Of a stretch of DNA of 64,000 nt, positions 26,981 to 33,657 are shown one piece after another. Made by a program: the position numbers and the translations under genes. The notes under the pieces were generated by a model. It ran no database searches. It was not told where the DNA came from and saw only the letters and a program-made list of their open reading frames with translations. Numbering within the stretch: position 1 is the first letter of the stretch; each line of letters begins with the position of its first letter. Source of the DNA: Dokdonella sp. (GTDB lineage: Bacteria > Pseudomonadota > Gammaproteobacteria > Xanthomonadales > Rhodanobacteraceae); the NCBI GenBank assembly GCA_023228465.1, contig JALOBC010000004.1, forward strand, positions 1-64,000, in the 5' to 3' direction.

Positions 26981-27004
26981 GTGGGAGCGGCTTCAGCCGC
27001 GATG
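26981..27004 (-). repeat. REP element at the RAYT 3' end
   Basis: GTGGGAGCGGCTTCAGCCGC followed by GATG is the same sequence as the right half of the two 75-bp units beyond the RAYT gene, and it is palindromic (GCGGCT/AGCCGC). It lies over the last codons and stop of the RAYT gene. To its left, 26949-26980 (CCGCGTTGC, CGCCTGC) is a degenerate match to the central part of those units, so a decayed third copy probably occupies about 26949-27004. The rest of 26793-26948 holds the mrp promoter region only. Confidence 0.85.
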
Positions 27005-27523
27005 GACCTGGTCGATCCACACGGCGTCCCAGAACGGGTAGTCGCCGACCCGTTTCACCAGACCGGCGCGCACTGGATTGAGGACAATGTAGCGCGCGAC
27101 ATCGAGAACATGCTCCTCGGCACGCAAGGCATGGTCGTGGAAGCCCTCCGCCCACAGGGCACCGCTCCTTTCGCGCGCCTGGTTGGCCTTGCGCGAGGTG
27201 ATGCCCTTCAGGCGACGAACCAGTCGGGACAGGTCCTCCTGCGGGCCAAGCTCGACCAGGCCATGCCAGTGATCCGGCATCAATACCCAGCACAGCAACC
27301 GCGATTCACTCCAGATCGCGGGCATGTACAAGACGCGGGAGACTGCAAGGGCGCCATTCCAGTCAGCCAGCAGAGGAGCCCGGTTGGCGGTGGCAAAGGT
27401 AATCAGGTAGATGCGCCCCGCTTCGCTGTGGCGGCCACGCCGCAAGAGCCTGCTGCCGCGCCTGGGTATCGGGTGGTCGTGGGCATGCACGACAGGATGG
27501 ATGACCCGGCACATCGGCACCAT
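26993..27523 (-). CDS. REP-associated tyrosine transposase (RAYT, Y1 HUH type)
   Basis: From ATG 27523 the product is 176 aa. It carries the RAYT signatures GRIYLITFATANR, the HUH-type motif VLMPDHWHGLVELG (His-x-His), GALWAEGFHDHALR with the region for the catalytic Tyr, and ARYIVLNPVRAGLV leading to YPFWDAVW. These single-copy transposases act on REP hairpins. In relatives I recall the protein starting MPRRGS-LLR; here that codon (27467-27469) is ATA, so translation must begin upstream, at ATG 27523, ATG 27514 or GTG 27490. The stop codon is formed by the REP sequence. The start is uncertain. Confidence 0.82.
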   Translation of the reverse strand: MVPMCRVIHPVVHAHDHPIPRRGSRLLRRGRHSEAGRIYLITFATANRAPLLADWNGALAVSRVLYMPAIWSESRLLCWVLMPDHWHGLVELGPQEDLSRLVRRLKGITSRKANQARERSGALWAEGFHDHALRAEEHVLDVARYIVLNPVRAGLVKRVGDYPFWDAVWIDQVHRG

Positions 27524-27571
27524 GGAGAGAAGTCGGCTGAATTTGTAGGCGTTTGCCGAACCGAAATGCAA

Positions 27572-27646
27572 GCATCGGGACTGAAGTCCCTCCCACACGC
27601 GTTGCGACCACGCCTGCTGCCGTGGGAGCGGCTTCAGCCGCGATGC
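27572..27646. repeat. REP doublet (REPIN), copy 1
   Basis: This 75-bp unit has two REPs facing each other: GGGACTGAAGTCCC with CTCCCAC on the left, and GTGGGAG with GCGGCTTCAGCCGC on the right, separated by a short spacer containing CGCGTTGCGACCACGCC. It is identical over all 75 bp to copy 2, which lies 21 bp downstream. It lies upstream of the RAYT gene. Confidence 0.9.
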
Positions 27647-27667
27647 CCTCCGCGACGATCGAACAAG

Positions 27668-27742
27668 GCATCGGGACTGAAGTCCCTCCCACACGCGTTG
27701 CGACCACGCCTGCTGCCGTGGGAGCGGCTTCAGCCGCGATGC
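27668..27742. repeat. REP doublet (REPIN), copy 2
   Basis: This is a second perfect 75-bp copy of the inverted REP pair, separated from the first by 21 bp of unrelated sequence. It lies between the RAYT gene and the mutagenesis operon, ending about 55 bp before the proposed promoter. The whole stretch 27524-27770 consists of these repeats and short linkers, with no gene. Confidence 0.9.
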
Positions 27743-27795
27743 TTGTGGTTGCGGGCAAAAACGCCAGGCTTGAAGTTCTCCTGTCGTTCCCGAGG

Positions 27796-27827
27796 TGCTA
27801 ATCTTGATTCATGTCCCATGAATCAAG
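27796..27827 (+). promoter_or_regulatory. Extended -10 promoter overlapping a perfect 11-bp palindromic operator
   Basis: TGCTAATCT (27796-27804) reads as an extended -10 element; I see no good -35. Overlapping it is a perfect inverted repeat, CTTGATTCATG (27803-27813), a 3-nt spacer TCC, then CATGAATCAAG (27817-27827). An operator covering the -10 and start site is the usual layout for SOS-type repression. The palindrome is not the Xanthomonas LexA box (TTAGTA-N3-TACTAA) as I know it, and its TTGA...TCAA ends recall the site reported for the UmuDAb repressor of Acinetobacter. Confidence 0.6.
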
Positions 27828-27835
27828 ATGACGCC

Positions 27836-28405
27836 ATGTCCCGCTCCCGCCATGGAGGTTTCCGCCCCGGCGCCGGTCGCCCCGCCGGCGAGCCCACGCA
27901 GCGCCTGCGCGTGCCGGAAAGCCAGGTGCCGGCGGTGCGGGCCTGGCTGGATGCCAGTCGCGCACCGGTCGCGCTTGGCGCGCCGCGCGCCTTGTCGCTG
28001 GAGCCGTCGAACATCGCCCTGCATGCCTTCCTGAACCGCGTACCGGCCGGTATTCCGGCGACGCTGGAAGCGGCCGCGGACGAGGCAGTCGATCTCAACC
28101 GGCACCTGGTGATCGCCGGACATGAAGGCAGCACGGCGATGATCCGTGTCTCCGGCTGGTCGATGATCGGTGCCGGCATTTTCGACCAGGACGAGGTGTT
28201 GGTCGACCGGGCCCTCGAGGCCCGCCAGGGCGACATCGTGGTGGCGCTGGTCAATGGCGAGCTGTCCATCAAGCGCCTGGGCATGCTCGACGGCCAGGTC
28301 GCGCTGCTGCCGGAGAACCCGCACTTCAGGCCGATCGTGCTGCGCGAGGATGAAACCCTCGACATCTGGGGCGTGGTCACGCGCTGTCTGCGCAAGCTGC
28401 GTTGA
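27836..28405 (+). CDS. UmuD-like S24 peptidase with possible DNA-binding N-terminus
   Basis: The product is 189 aa. The C-terminal half is a LexA/UmuD self-cleaving domain: nucleophile Ser109 in RVSGWSM, Lys146 in GELSIKRLG, and a scissile Ala71-Gly72 in NRVPAGIPA. The N-terminus (GGFRPGAGRP, then RVPESQVPAVRAWL) is longer than in E. coli UmuD (139 aa) and resembles AT-hook/ribbon-helix-like modules, so it may bind DNA. Typical relatives of this operon have lexA2 in this position. ATG 27836 is preferred to ATG 27818 because the latter lies inside the palindrome. It is followed by imuA after 4 nt. No umuC partner is seen. Confidence 0.78.
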   Translation: MSRSRHGGFRPGAGRPAGEPTQRLRVPESQVPAVRAWLDASRAPVALGAPRALSLEPSNIALHAFLNRVPAGIPATLEAAADEAVDLNRHLVIAGHEGSTAMIRVSGWSMIGAGIFDQDEVLVDRALEARQGDIVVALVNGELSIKRLGMLDGQVALLPENPHFRPIVLREDETLDIWGVVTRCLRKLR

Positions 28406-28409
28406 CGCC

Positions 28410-29030
28410 ATGGCTGTTGCTTCCCTCGCTGCGCTGCTCGCAAACCGCCAGGTCTGGCAGGGTCACGCCGCGCCTGCCGTCGATGGCGAACCGACGGGCT
28501 GGGCCGAACTGGACGCACTGCTGCCGGGAGGTGGCTGGCCGCAGGCGGCGCTGAGCGAAATCCTCATTCCCGTCGATGGCGTCGGCGAACTGCAGCTGGT
28601 GTTGCCGGCGCTGGCGCGACTGACCCGCGCCGCCCGTCCGGTGATCGTGGTCGCACCGCCGTACCGGCCCTATGCGCCGGGCTGGGAAGCACGCGGGATG
28701 GTCATGTCTGCGGTCGAGATCGTCCAGGCCAGCGCACCGAAGGATGCCCTGTGGGCGGCCGAACAATGCCTGCGTTCGGGCAGTTGCGCGGCCGTGCTCG
28801 CCTGGCCGCGAGGCGCGGACGAACGCGCGCTGCGCCGCCTGCAGGTGGCTGCCACGGCGGGTGCGGCGCTGGGATTCGTCTTCCGCGACCGCCGGCATGT
28901 CGGCCAGCCTTCGCCGGCGGCCCTGCGGCTGGAGATCGAAGTCCGGCCGGCGCCGCGGTTGCATGTACGCAAATGCCGTGGCGCCAATCCGCCGTCACGG
29001 CCCCTTGCGTTGCCGACGGCCTGGCGCTGA
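28410..29030 (+). CDS. imuA: ImuA, RecA-like mutasome accessory protein
   Basis: The product is 206 aa. It is a RecA/SulA-like protein with LPGGGWPQAALSEILIP at its start, corresponding to the RecA Walker A region but without a full GxxxxGK[ST], as is normal for ImuA. PVIVVAPPYRPYAPGWEARG follows. ImuA works with ImuB and DnaE2 in damage-induced mutagenesis. It lies between the UmuD-like gene (4 nt gap) and imuB (11 nt gap), so it is clearly in one transcript. Confidence 0.88.
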   Translation: MAVASLAALLANRQVWQGHAAPAVDGEPTGWAELDALLPGGGWPQAALSEILIPVDGVGELQLVLPALARLTRAARPVIVVAPPYRPYAPGWEARGMVMSAVEIVQASAPKDALWAAEQCLRSGSCAAVLAWPRGADERALRRLQVAATAGAALGFVFRDRRHVGQPSPAALRLEIEVRPAPRLHVRKCRGANPPSRPLALPTAWR

Positions 29031-29041
29031 GGAAAGCGACG

Positions 29042-30451
29042 ATGTCGTGGGCCTGTATCCGCCTGCCGCAACTGGCGCTGGACGCGGCCCTGCGTCGCCA
29101 TGCCGAGCCGCAGGCGCCGTTGGCCCTGGTGACCGGTCCGGCGCAGGCACGCGCGCTGTTCGCCGTGAACCCGGCCGCACAGGCGGCTGGATTGCGTCCT
29201 GGCATGCGCCTGGCCATGGCCGAGGCCCTGCTCGCCGGTTTCGGAAAGATCGAATACGACCCGGCTGCCGCCCGGCGCTGGCAGTGCTTCCTTGCCGCCT
29301 GGGCCTATCGCTACAGCGCCGAAGTGGTGTTGCTGCCGGATGCAATCGGCTTCGAGGCCAGTCGCAGCCTGGGCCTGTTCGGTCCCTGGCCGCGTTTCGA
29401 GGCGCGCCTGCGCGAAGACCTGGTCGCGCTCGGCTTCCAGCATCGCATCGCGTTGGCGCCTGTCGTGCATGCGGCCCATGCCCTGGCCGGCGCCCACGAT
29501 GGCCTTGCCGTGACCGCGCTCGATGCATTGCAACGCGCCCTGGCGCCGCTCGCGCTCAAGCACGCCAACCTTCCGCCCGCGACGGTCGAGACCCTGGCCG
29601 CGATGGGCGTGCGCAGCCTGGGCCAGCTCCTGCGCCTGCCGCGCGCGGGCCTGCAGCGGCGCCTGGGTGCGAGCCTCCTGCTGCACCTCGATCGCCTGCG
29701 CGGTCTTGCGCCGGATGCGCTGGAACGCTATCGCCCGCCCGATCGTCTCGACCTGCAACTTGCCTGGGAATACGACATCGAACGCGGCGAGGGACTGGTG
29801 TTCCCGCTGCGTCGCCTCACCGCGGATCTGGCTGCCTGTCTAGCCGGCCGCGATGGCGGCGTGCAGCGCTTCACCCTGCTGCTGGAACACGCCGACCGCG
29901 CGCCCACGCGGATCGACGTCGGCCTGCTCGCACCTGCCCGCGAAGCCGCCTTGCTGTTCGACTGCGCACGCGGCCGGCTGGAACGGCAAACCCTGCCCGC
30001 ACCGGTGCGCGCCTTGCGCCTGGTCGCGAACGATCTGCCCCCTTTCGTACCGGCCGGACGCGACCTGTTCGATAGCCGGCCTGCGCATGCCATACCGCCC
30101 GAGGAACTGCGCGAGCGCCTGCGCGCACGCCTGGGTGGACAGGCACTGCAACGACTCGCCTGTACCGTGGATCCACGCCCCGAACGCGCGCAGTCGTCGA
30201 GCGCACCACCGGCCACGCTGCCGAGTGCCCGCCTGCCGCGCCCGACCTGGCTGCTGGAAACGCCAATCCCGCTGCGTGGCCCACCGCCCACCCTGCTGGC
30301 CGGCCCGGAGCGCCTGGAAACCGGCTGGTGGGACGGTGGCGACCTGCGGCGCGACTACTACCTGGCGCGAACCAGCGAAGGCCAGCGTGCGTGGATCTTC
30401 TGCGCGCCGGGCGAGCGCGGTCCATGGATGCTGCATGGGTGGTTTGCATGA
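29042..30451 (+). CDS. imuB: ImuB, Y-family-like mutasome protein
   Basis: The product is 469 aa. It has a Y-family polymerase fold but lacks the catalytic acidic triad, as expected for ImuB. Recognisable parts are the start [32 protein letters not shown], the finger/helix-hairpin-helix region [20 protein letters not shown], and the C-terminal domain ending [17 protein letters not shown]. ImuB binds the sliding clamp and recruits DnaE2. The stop overlaps the dnaE2 ATG (ATGA). Confidence 0.9.
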
Positions 30452-33400
30452 AGATCCCCCTTTCCAAGGGTGGTGCAACCCGGAGTGGTGTCCCCGGCGG
30501 TGCAGGCTCGCGACCTGGGGCGGTGTCCGTCGCCCGCGTAGGACCCCCGCCCCATGGGTCGTCCACTCACGAGGCAGTGCCCGCCTACGCCGAGCTCCAT
30601 TGCCTTTCGAACTTCTCCTTCCAGCGTGGCGCCTCGAGCGCGCGCGAGCTGTTCGAGCGGGCGAAGGCCTGTGGTTACACCGCGCTGGCGATCACCGACG
30701 AGTGTTCGCTGGCTGGCATCGTGCGCGCCAACGAAGCGGCGCGCAGCAGCGGCGTCAAGCTGATCGTCGGTGCCGAGCTCCAGCTGGTCGATGGCCCCAG
30801 GCTGGTGCTGCTATGCCAGGACATGGACGGCTATACGGCCCTGTGCGGCCTTATCACGCAGGGTCGCCGCGCGGCAGGGAAGGGCGAATACCATCTGCAA
30901 CGCGCCGATCTGGCGGGCGGCCTGCCGGGTACGCTGGCGCTGTGGCTTCCGCCGGACGCGCCCGATCCCGCCGACGGTGCGTGGCTCAAGGACCTGTTCG
31001 GCACGCGCCTGTGGCTGGCGGTGGAGCTGCACTGCGGTCCGGATGACGCGCGTCGCCTGGCGGCACTGGACGCGCTGTCCGGTCGGCTCGGGATTCCCGC
31101 CGTCGCCGCCGGTGACGTGCACATGCATGTGCGCCGGCGACGCGCATTGCAGGACGTGATGACGGCCTTGCGCCACCGCTCCACCGTGGCCGCGGCCGGC
31201 GCGCACCTGTTCCGCAACGGCGAACGCCATCTGCGCAGGCGCGAAGCACTGGCAGCCATCTATCCGCCCAGGTTGCTGGAGGAAACCCTGCGCCTTGCCG
31301 CCCGCTGCACGTTTTCCCTGGATGAGCTCGATTACCGCTATCCGGCCGAGCTGGTGCCGGACGGCCATACGCCCGCCAGCTGGCTGCGCGAACTTACCGA
31401 GACGGGCATGGCCTGGCGCTGGCCGCAGGGTGCCGGCGAGCGGGTGCGCACGCAGATCGAACACGAGCTCGCCCTGATCAGTGCGCTTGGCTACGAAGCC
31501 TATTTCCTCACCGTGCACGACATCGTGCGCTTTGCCCGCAGCCGCGGGATCCTCTGCCAGGGCCGCGGTTCGGCGGCCAATTCCGCGGTGTGCTTTGCGC
31601 TGGGCATCACCGAGGTGGATCCGGCGCGCAGCAACCTGCTGATGGAGCGTTTCATTTCGCGCGAGCGCAACGAGCCGCCGGACATCGACGTCGATTTCGA
31701 GCACGAGCGGCGCGAGGAGGTGATCCAGTACATCTATGCCAAGTACGGACGCGAGCGCGCCGCGCTCGCCGCCACCGTGATCTGCTACCGCGCCAGGAGC
31801 GCGGTGCGCGACGTCGCCCGCGCGCTCGGCCTGCCGGGCGATGCCATCGACCAGCTCTCCCGCGCCTGCGCCGGCTGGACCGGCGAGGACACGCTCGACG
31901 AGCGTCTCGCCGAACGGGGCTTCGATGTGGCCAGCCCGCTGATCCAGCGCCTGCTGAAGCTTGCCGCGGAACTGCTCGATTTTCCGCGCCATCTTTCCCA
32001 GCACGTCGGCGGCTTCGTCATTTCCGATGCGCCGCTGTCGAGCCTGGTGCCGGTCGAGAACGCTGCCATGCCCGAGCGCACCATCATCCAGTGGGACAAG
32101 GATGACCTCGACTCACTGGGTCTCCTGAAGGTCGATTGCCTGGCGCTCGGCATGCTCACCTGCGTCAGGAAATGCCTCGACCTGCTGCGCCGGCAGCATG
32201 GACGCGATCTCACCATGGCGACAATCCCGGCCGACGATCCGGCCACCTACGCCATGATCCAGCGCGCCGACACGCTGGGCGTGTTCCAGATCGAGAGCCG
32301 CGCGCAGATGGCCATGCTGCCGCGTCACCGGCCGGCCAACTTCCACGACCTGGTGATCCAGGTCGCCATCGTGCGGCCGGGACCGATCCAGGGCGACATG
32401 GTGCATCCGTACCTGCGCCGGCGGCGCGGCGAGGAAGCGGTCGAGTACCCTTCCGATGACCTCAAGCGGGTGCTGGAACGTACTCTCGGTGTGCCGCTGT
32501 TCCAGGAACAGGTGATGCAGATCGCCATCGTCGCCGCCGGCTATACGCCCGGCGAGGCCGACCAGCTGCGCCGGGCGATGGCCGCCTGGAAACGCCACGG
32601 CGGCATGGAAGCCCATCGCGAGCGCATCACCCGCGGCATGCTCGCGCGCGGCTACAGTGCGCAGTTCGCCGCGCAGCTCTTCGAGCAGATCAGGGGCTTT
32701 GGTTCCTACGGCTTCCCGGAAAGTCATTCGGCCAGCTTCGCCGGCATCGTCTATGCGAGCTGCTGGCTGAAATGCCACGCGCCGGCGGCCTTCGCCTGTG
32801 CGCTGCTCAACTCCCAGCCGATGGGCTTCTACGCGCCCAGCCAGATCGTGCAGGACGTCCGGCGCCATGGCATCGCCGTGCGGCCCATCGACGTACGCTG
32901 GAGCGACTGGGACTGCACACTCGAAGCCGATCCGCGCTCGACACTGCAGCAACCGGCGCTGCGCCTGGGCCTGCGCCAGCTGCGCGGCTTCCGCGAGGAT
33001 GCGGCGCTGTGCATCATGCAGGCGCGGGCCGCTGCGCCGTTTGAAGACGTGGCCGATCTGTGCGCGCGTGCCGGTCTCGACCAGCGCCAGCGCGCCCTGC
33101 TCGCCGAGGCCGGTGCGCTGCGTGGCCTGGCCGGCCATCGCCACCGTGCGCGCTGGGCCGTGGCCGGCATCGAGCCGCAATTGCCGCTGTTCGGCCACGC
33201 CAGCCCCGCCGAATCGGCCATCACCCTGCCATTGCCGACGCAGGGCGAAGACACCCTCGCCGACTACGCACGCACCGGACTCAGCCTGGGCCCGCACCCG
33301 CTGCGGCAGATCCGCTCCCGACTCGCCGCCGCACGGTGTCTCGACTCGCGCACGCTCGCCGCGCGTCCCAATGACAGCCAGGTGCGCACCGCCGGCCTGG

Positions 33401-33657
33401 TCACCCAGCGCCAGCGCCCGCAGACCGCCAGCGGTGTGTCCTTCTTCACCCTCGAGGACGAATTCGGCAGCATCAACATCGTCATCCGTCGCGCGGTCGC
33501 CGAACGCCAGCGCCGGGTGTTCCTCGAAGCGCGCCTGCTCGGCGTTTCCGGGCGCTGGCAGATGGCCGATGGCGTCGGCCACCTGGTCGCCAGCCGCCTC
33601 ACCGATTTCAGCGCGCTGCTGGGTTCACTTGACAGCCGCTCGCGGGACTTCCATTGA
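30448..33657 (+). CDS. dnaE2: Error-prone DNA polymerase DnaE2 with N-terminal extension
   Basis: The product is 1069 aa. A PHP domain begins at [18 protein letters not shown], followed by the polymerase core with [20 protein letters not shown] and the catalytic acidic motif [15 protein letters not shown]. The helix-hairpin-helix region is also present, as is a C-terminal OB domain ([17 protein letters not shown]). It lacks the C-terminal clamp/tau regions of DnaE1, as DnaE2 does; clamp contact comes through ImuB. From ATG 30448 about 43 extra residues precede the PHP domain (Gly/Pro/Ser-rich). GTG 30577 would give the family's normal start, but has a weak ribosome site. It is the last gene of the operon. 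Confidence 0.93.

Follow-up and report, generated by a model that had tools for sequence, protein, structure and literature searches.

The window, a 64-kb stretch of DNA, lies in a 3.42-Mb source genome (G000) whose assembly is listed as 99.98% complete and which encodes RecA. It harbours an operon that, as the initial annotation had recognised, is led by an S24 protease gene of UmuD type and runs on through imuA, imuB and dnaE2 (27836-33657). The leading gene (27836..28405, + strand), a candidate UmuDAb-type S24 repressor of 189 residues, has a start that agrees with its orthologues; an alternative in-frame start lies at 27818, and its ATG falls within the right arm of the palindrome described below. 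Directly after it comes imuA (28410..29030, +), not the umuC that would mark the operon of a UmuD serving as Pol V subunit, followed by imuB (29042..30451, +), coding for an inactive Y-family polymerase homologue, and by dnaE2/imuC (about 30448..33657, +), whose start is uncertain. Both imuA, with a weak SulA match, and imuB, an ORF with a weak IMS match at the fitting cassette position, fall under the Pfam cut-offs and take their names from homology and gene order; imuA has matches in 28 of the 36 other genomes of the family, at 42-67% identity among the matches listed. Upstream of the operon, an ORF on the reverse strand (26993-27694, -) presumably encodes a REP-associated transposase-like protein, judging by eye from a sequence motif, and a long repeat in two copies ending CTTCAGCCGCGATGC (~27570-27745) lies directly upstream.

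Ahead of the leading gene stands a palindrome (27801..27829) of the form ATCTTGATTCATG-TCC-CATGAATCAAGAT. The initial annotation had described a perfect 11-bp palindrome with a 3-nt spacer; perfection and spacer hold, and the arms are two positions longer, at 13 bp. Its inner 23 bp (27804-27826) read TTGA-TTCAT-GTCCC-ATGAA-TCAA. Within the window this is the sole perfect inverted repeat with arms of at least 13 (spacer up to 15), such arms arose in none of 10 Markov shuffles of the window, and no arm longer than 11 arose in 1000 shuffles of the 200-nt upstream region. A possible -10 element, TAATCT (27799..27804, +), overlaps the left arm by eye, and a consensus scan of 27600-27900 returned no sigma-70 promoter, so that the -10 element claimed for this spot did not gain support.

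Genome-wide (3.42 Mb), the palindrome occurs once when up to 3 mismatches are allowed, and a relaxed pattern, TCTTGATT-N11-AATCAAGA, finds two further sites with 3 mismatches each. The TTGA palindrome has three 1-mismatch matches elsewhere in the source genome, and no site at up to 1 mismatch lies at the contig position of recA; a wider regulon of TTGA palindromes was considered for this genome and dropped, as just one full site was found. We also searched six genomes (G000, G028, G034, G018, G024 and G023) for the exact pattern TTGAWT-N11-AWTCAA, for which 0.012 occurrences are expected in the source genome, and detected one each in G000, G028, G034 and G018, always before a UmuDAb-type gene. 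The exact pattern is absent from G024, which has a box with N10, and occurs once in G023 at another place, the latter's own box differing in spacing and in one base.

The protease domain and its N-terminal module

The best PDB match of the S24 domain is UmuD, and the NCBIfam model of the pol V subunit scores just above its cut-off. Homology to UmuD and LexA places the predicted self-cleavage site at Ala71-Gly72 (28046..28051, +), conserved in relatives, the predicted nucleophile at Ser109 (28160..28162, +) and the predicted general base at Lys146 (28271..28273, +). In two alignments, of 15 and 14 relatives, Gly72, Ser109 and Lys146 never vary, and Ala71 hardly does. By its Ala-Gly, Ser and Lys the protein is an S24 protease of UmuD type, and these conserved residues would allow it to cut itself between Ala71 and Gly72.

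Ahead of the protease lies a module of residues 7-40 (27854..27955, +), running from GGFRPGAGRP to EPTQRLRVPESQVPAVRAWLD. The consensus GGxRxGAGR[PK]..EPTxxxRVPES is common to 15 aligned relatives, which were selected for having the extension. Among 82 extended N-termini the R and P of RVP are conserved in 100%, E in 95%, T in 91% and S in 90%, all of them positions outside the GG..R..G..GR pattern by which these sequences were selected; conservation of GG, R and GR is partly by construction because that pattern was used for recognition.

The mutagenic primers of Acinetobacter UmuDAb given in the available part of PMC4807011 (Table 2) translate into GRKAKYQ(E24)PTKVI and RVPESQVAFI(K40 R41)WLLDN, and in the primer-derived A. 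baylyi protein K comes at position 40 by count, in agreement with the paper's numbering. Among 73 S24 proteins this 30-residue fragment detected 42 of the 50 extended UmuDs and 0 of the 23 unextended ones above the HMMER inclusion line, and it matches the source protein with E=3e-5. UmuDAb E24 corresponds to E19 of the source protein, the E kept in 95% of the 82 sequences, and K40/R41 correspond to R35/A36, with a basic residue at the first position alone. The E24K and K40P/R41P substitutions relieve repression according to the part of PMC4807011 at hand, and the accessible text of PMC11332147 gives a 2.5- to 3-fold increase in operator KD for the matching A. baumannii mutants. The source N-terminus is, as judged by homology, of the UmuDAb type, and the parallel to UmuDAb drawn in the initial annotation is supported by it; the operator agrees with UmuDAb's in its TTGA..TCAA arms and GT..C core but differs in spacing and in the middle of the core.

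A Pfam search with the module found no family and a PDB search nothing credible, while its PHROGs matches were mainly to families without known function. AlphaFold gave a pLDDT of about 40-50 across residues 1-80 of the source protein; in a viral relative, residues 21-40 reach a pLDDT of ~70, and an extended piece is followed by a helix at 27-43. With low to moderate confidence, these models suggest a single helix beside an extended segment, which makes up no winged helix and no complete ribbon-helix-helix either, and the ribbon-helix segment once suspected here found no confirmation in them or in Pfam.

Association of the box with the extension

The palindrome is conserved upstream of orthologues: TTGA-N14/15-TCAA occurs in the same place in 7/7 orthologues (L033-L039, from two Luteibacter, two Dyella, a Rhodanobacter MAG, a Frateuria and a Methylococcus MAG), and an eighth (L040) has a weak TTGA..TCAA site. 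For a broader comparison we used a set of 73 loci comprising 49 regions with sequence matches (25 full-length besides the source locus and 24 shorter, among the matches listed), three family loci, the source locus, nine of ten named loci (without L042), seven of eight plasmid loci (without L052, which has no usable ORF) and L007, L008, L010 and L011; three matches with E<1e-40 (one in G313, two in G307) were left out. The box test covered 72 loci, with 49 of the 50 extended UmuDs, L071 being omitted for want of upstream sequence, and its score admits spacing variants, which a rigid first version missed. A TTGA..TCAA inverted repeat was found at shuffle p<=0.02 before 27 of 49 extended and 0 of 23 unextended UmuDs, and the box scores of the two groups differ with a Mann-Whitney p=6e-9, p-values that overstate independence because the loci share descent and differ in base composition. 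The remaining 22 of 49 extended UmuDs missed p<=0.02; many of them have by eye a degenerate box at the same place, and at least L054, L059, L064 and L065 have no fitting box by eye. An enteric-type LexA box, CTGT-N8-ACAG, precedes six of the 23 unextended UmuDs (L050, L053, L097, L099, L100 and L101).

A similar box is seen by eye before the unextended UmuDs L095, L102, L171, L172 and L174. Box and extension thus coincide imperfectly; control in trans would explain boxed unextended UmuDs, and it would fit L095 and L102 since their genomes also hold an extended UmuD.

In family f64, 22 of 30 extended UmuDs scored at least 10 of 12 for TTGA-N4/5-GTNAC-N4/5-TCAA and 8 of 30 fell under 10, as against 3 of 30 control stretches taken from more distant upstream sequence and 2.8% of shuffled sequences at 10 or more, in upstream regions that had been viewed by eye ahead of scoring. 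Arms and core of this score were taken from the Acinetobacter operator and the N5 spacing from loci of this study, and the f64 locus L136 and L059 of the 72-locus test are one gene. The f64 boxes (L136-L165) have mostly GTAAC or GTTAC cores, and by eye none of the 30 loci has umuC directly downstream. N5 spacing with a GTAAC or GTTAC core occurs at other extended UmuDs too, and many extended relatives share their locus with umuC.

In the class sample and among close relatives, at least 21 family codes contain the extension; the box reaches p<=0.02 in 9 of these, and f64 adds another family with the box. Extended UmuDs with a box at p<=0.02 reside on plasmids of Legionella israelensis, Sulfuricella and Acinetobacter portensis, and a Synechococcus plasmid carries one with a weak box. 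Extended UmuDs also occupy 5 of 12 viral-contig loci (L166-L170, two of them near-identical), with boxes by eye, and the A. baumannii operator has no exact match in the viral contigs.

LexA and the leaders of imu cassettes

The source genome has a single match to the S24 family (PF00717), which is the gene at 27836-28405, and the LexA DNA-binding domain (PF01726), which was found in 10 of 14 control genomes, matched nothing in the genome or in the S24 protein itself. Standard LexA control of the operon, which the initial annotation had named as a finding that would refute its reading, was rejected because this search of the genome gave neither a LexA DNA-binding domain nor a second S24 gene.

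The presence of S24 regulators and that of imu cassettes go hand in hand in the family: among its 37 genomes (our own included) S24 occurs in 29, imuA occurs in 29, and the same 8 have neither. By eye, the gene preceding imuA encodes a LexA-like winged-helix N-terminus at 26 of 30 family loci, several of which show a different palindrome, for example ATACGTACATTAGTACGTAT, immediately ahead of the start. A UmuDAb-type protein with a TTGA box stands before imuA in the source genome, G028 and G034, and UmuDAb-type leaders also head the named imu loci L033-L037; G018 and G024 have a LexA-like protein before imuA and a UmuDAb-type protein before umuC elsewhere. Cassettes led by a UmuDAb-type protein have the TTGA box with 0 mismatches in 3/3 cases, whereas the closest approach among the 19 LexA-led loci parsed is a single one with 2 mismatches (seven of the 30 loci, L109, L110, L111, L119, L123, L124 and L126, were unparsed, and the chimera L117 described below was not counted).

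A tree was built from 88 protease domains (the motif filter skipped 7 rows, and L117 was omitted as a duplicate of L010), and in it the eight imu-leading UmuDAb-type domains form one clade (100/87) that adjoins the protease of a Frateuria umuDC (100/98). On this tree the takeover of the imu cassette looks like one event with a umuDC source. The source copy clusters with those of Luteibacter (100/98) even though other members of its own genus carry a LexA-like leader, a pattern that hints at acquisition by transfer.

One locus before imuA (L010, identical to L117; G023:C2) encodes a chimera with a UmuDAb-type N-terminus on a LexA-type protease. The protease is sister to a LexA (97/94) within the LexA clade (100/100), and the upstream box, GTCTTGATTTCTGTTCGGAAATCGAGAT, belongs to the TTGA type and deviates at a single arm position. 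The chimera is a single case, and it provides the best evidence that the N-terminus would be the part that reads the box.

A repressor reading and its rivals

From the gene order, the palindrome, the way in which palindrome and N-terminus are each conserved and occur jointly, the leader swap and the search that found no LexA, all read directly from the DNA, we infer binding, dimerisation, repression, cleavage and induction. We hold it highly probable that a UmuDAb-type repressor binds the palindrome, silences the operon and cuts itself upon damage, whereupon the operon is induced; our confidence is a shade lower than it would otherwise be because the core of the box departs from GTnAC. Binding of the S24 protein to the palindrome of its own gene is very likely, and the UmuD-like protein appears to replace LexA as the DNA-damage switch of the polymerase operon, a role that the initial annotation had anticipated and that homology, the association of box and extension, the swap and the chimera support.

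Under this mechanism, residues 7 to about 40, which make up the N-terminal module, would contact the 29-bp palindrome (27801-27829) from within a dimer joined through the S24 domain. The palindrome would span the gene's own promoter and start region, such that its occupancy would silence the repressor gene together with imuA, imuB and dnaE2. DNA damage would activate RecA, the protein would cut itself at Ala71/Gly72 by means of Ser109/Lys146, and the DNA-binding piece would part from the dimerising piece, inducing the operon. The repressor would have replaced the LexA that heads the cassette in most relatives and brought along its own operator, of which the source genome has a full copy at this promoter alone.

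A different role would be that of a polymerase manager, a partner of the ImuB-DnaE2 mutasome in the manner of UmuD/UmuD', with the palindrome serving another regulator. The UmuD-type protease domain (with UmuD as best PDB match and the NCBIfam pol V subunit assignment) and the many extended relatives that share a locus with umuC fit such a role, but the box tracks the extension across contexts (umuC, imuA or alone) and, in the chimera, across protease types, and the extension counts a tested repressor domain among its homologues, which makes this reading improbable. The protein may yet have a dual role, acting as repressor when whole and, as UmuD' does for UmuC, as manager of ImuB-DnaE2 when cut.

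A second palindrome, TCTCA-N5-TGAGA, bears on the question of another regulator. It occurs in exact form upstream of the TTGA box in the imu cassettes of 6 of 7 relatives (not in L035) and also in the Frateuria umuDC, and eight genomes hold 18 exact sites versus 2 for a backward-read control. Eight of the 18 precede recA, recC, one of three UmuDAb-type genes or one of three genes for a DEAH-box helicase (TIGR03817-like, partial). Another stands before cas3, and of the remaining nine, eight have no such gene and one is unread. The source-genome sites L197 (G000:C33:31326-31340), L204, L209 and L213 lie between them upstream of recA, recC, cas3g and an unknown gene, and sites in relatives (L198, L199, L201, L205, L206 and L211) lie upstream of the DEAH-box helicase and UmuDAb-type genes. 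The motif may mark another LexA-independent damage regulon, and a literature search for it found nothing relevant among the entries listed. Its presence before recA and recC in the source genome and before the cassette in relatives could mean that a second LexA-independent damage regulator exerts the main control and that the UmuD-like protein is a minor tuner, yet no exact copy precedes the source operon (contig C41 has none) and the TTGA box there is perfect, so we judge this very unlikely. Least credible is a hairpin in RNA or DNA (an attenuator, or a site of recombination or of REP type) or a repeat arisen by chance, as might be suspected from the long perfect arms and from the transposase-like ORF and repeats seen by eye just upstream, given that TTGA and TCAA are kept while centre and gene context vary, that the stem is often imperfect and that similar sites precede extended UmuDs of further families as well as those of plasmids and viral contigs.

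Beyond repression of this operon by its leading protein, we lean towards a broader reading, in which GGxRxGAGR..EPTxxxRVPES would be a mobile domain that binds DNA, has a fold not described before and is accompanied by an operator of its own. It would be fused to self-cleaving proteases of UmuD type and, in one case or more, of LexA type, and would provide a private LexA-free damage switch for the operons of error-prone polymerases in many bacteria, be they chromosomal, plasmid-borne or phage-borne, having displaced LexA from the imu cassette here. If this is true, error-prone polymerases that are free of LexA could be told from sequence by the extension together with the TTGA..TCAA box, and the chimera found in nature lets the DNA-binding module be tested directly. 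The parts of the literature covered by our search yielded no report of UmuDAb relatives elsewhere or of a UmuD with imu cassettes; control of an imu cassette by a UmuDAb-type protein and a swappable DNA-binding module would be what is new here, the UmuDAb type being known from Acinetobacter.

E. coli UmuD shares with the source protein the S24 domain, the position of the cleavage site and the catalytic dyad, but has no DNA-binding extension, and its gene is under LexA. LexA proteins have a winged-helix N-terminus and recognise other boxes. Pseudomonas putida LexA2 of lexA2-imuA-imuB-imuC, as presented in the available part of PMC3901139, is likewise a self-cleaving repressor at the head of the cassette, whereas N-terminus and protease of the source protein are of UmuDAb/UmuD type. 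The Bacteroidetes LexA-like repressors, HdiR and Francisella FddR are also non-LexA S24 proteins that have come to control damage-inducible genes in place of LexA (PMC8565304 and PMC13148647, in the portions at hand), but these are of phage-repressor type, unlike the UmuD-type source protein.

The closest parallel is with UmuDAb, for which the following holds as far as the accessible sections of PMC4807011, PMC11332147, PMC7273328 and PMC8565304 go. The published Acinetobacter operator is TTGA-AAAT-GTAAC-TTTT-TCAA, with a GTnAC core reported to be crucial; UmuDAb-type control has been placed in the Moraxellaceae (PMC8565304), and the operator features have been called unique to Acinetobacter (PMC11332147). 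The source protein differs in heading imuA-imuB-dnaE2, whereas UmuDAb is found beside ddrR or umuC, in a box of 23 bp (N5) with GTCCC as against 21 bp (N4) with GTnAC, in having one full site in its genome as against several umuDC loci, and in its host, which belongs to another family, whereas DdrR is reported from Acinetobacter only. What the two have in common is a UmuD-type S24 domain with a homologous N-terminal extension, a TTGA..TCAA operator with a GT..C core before the protein's own gene, and a host without LexA.
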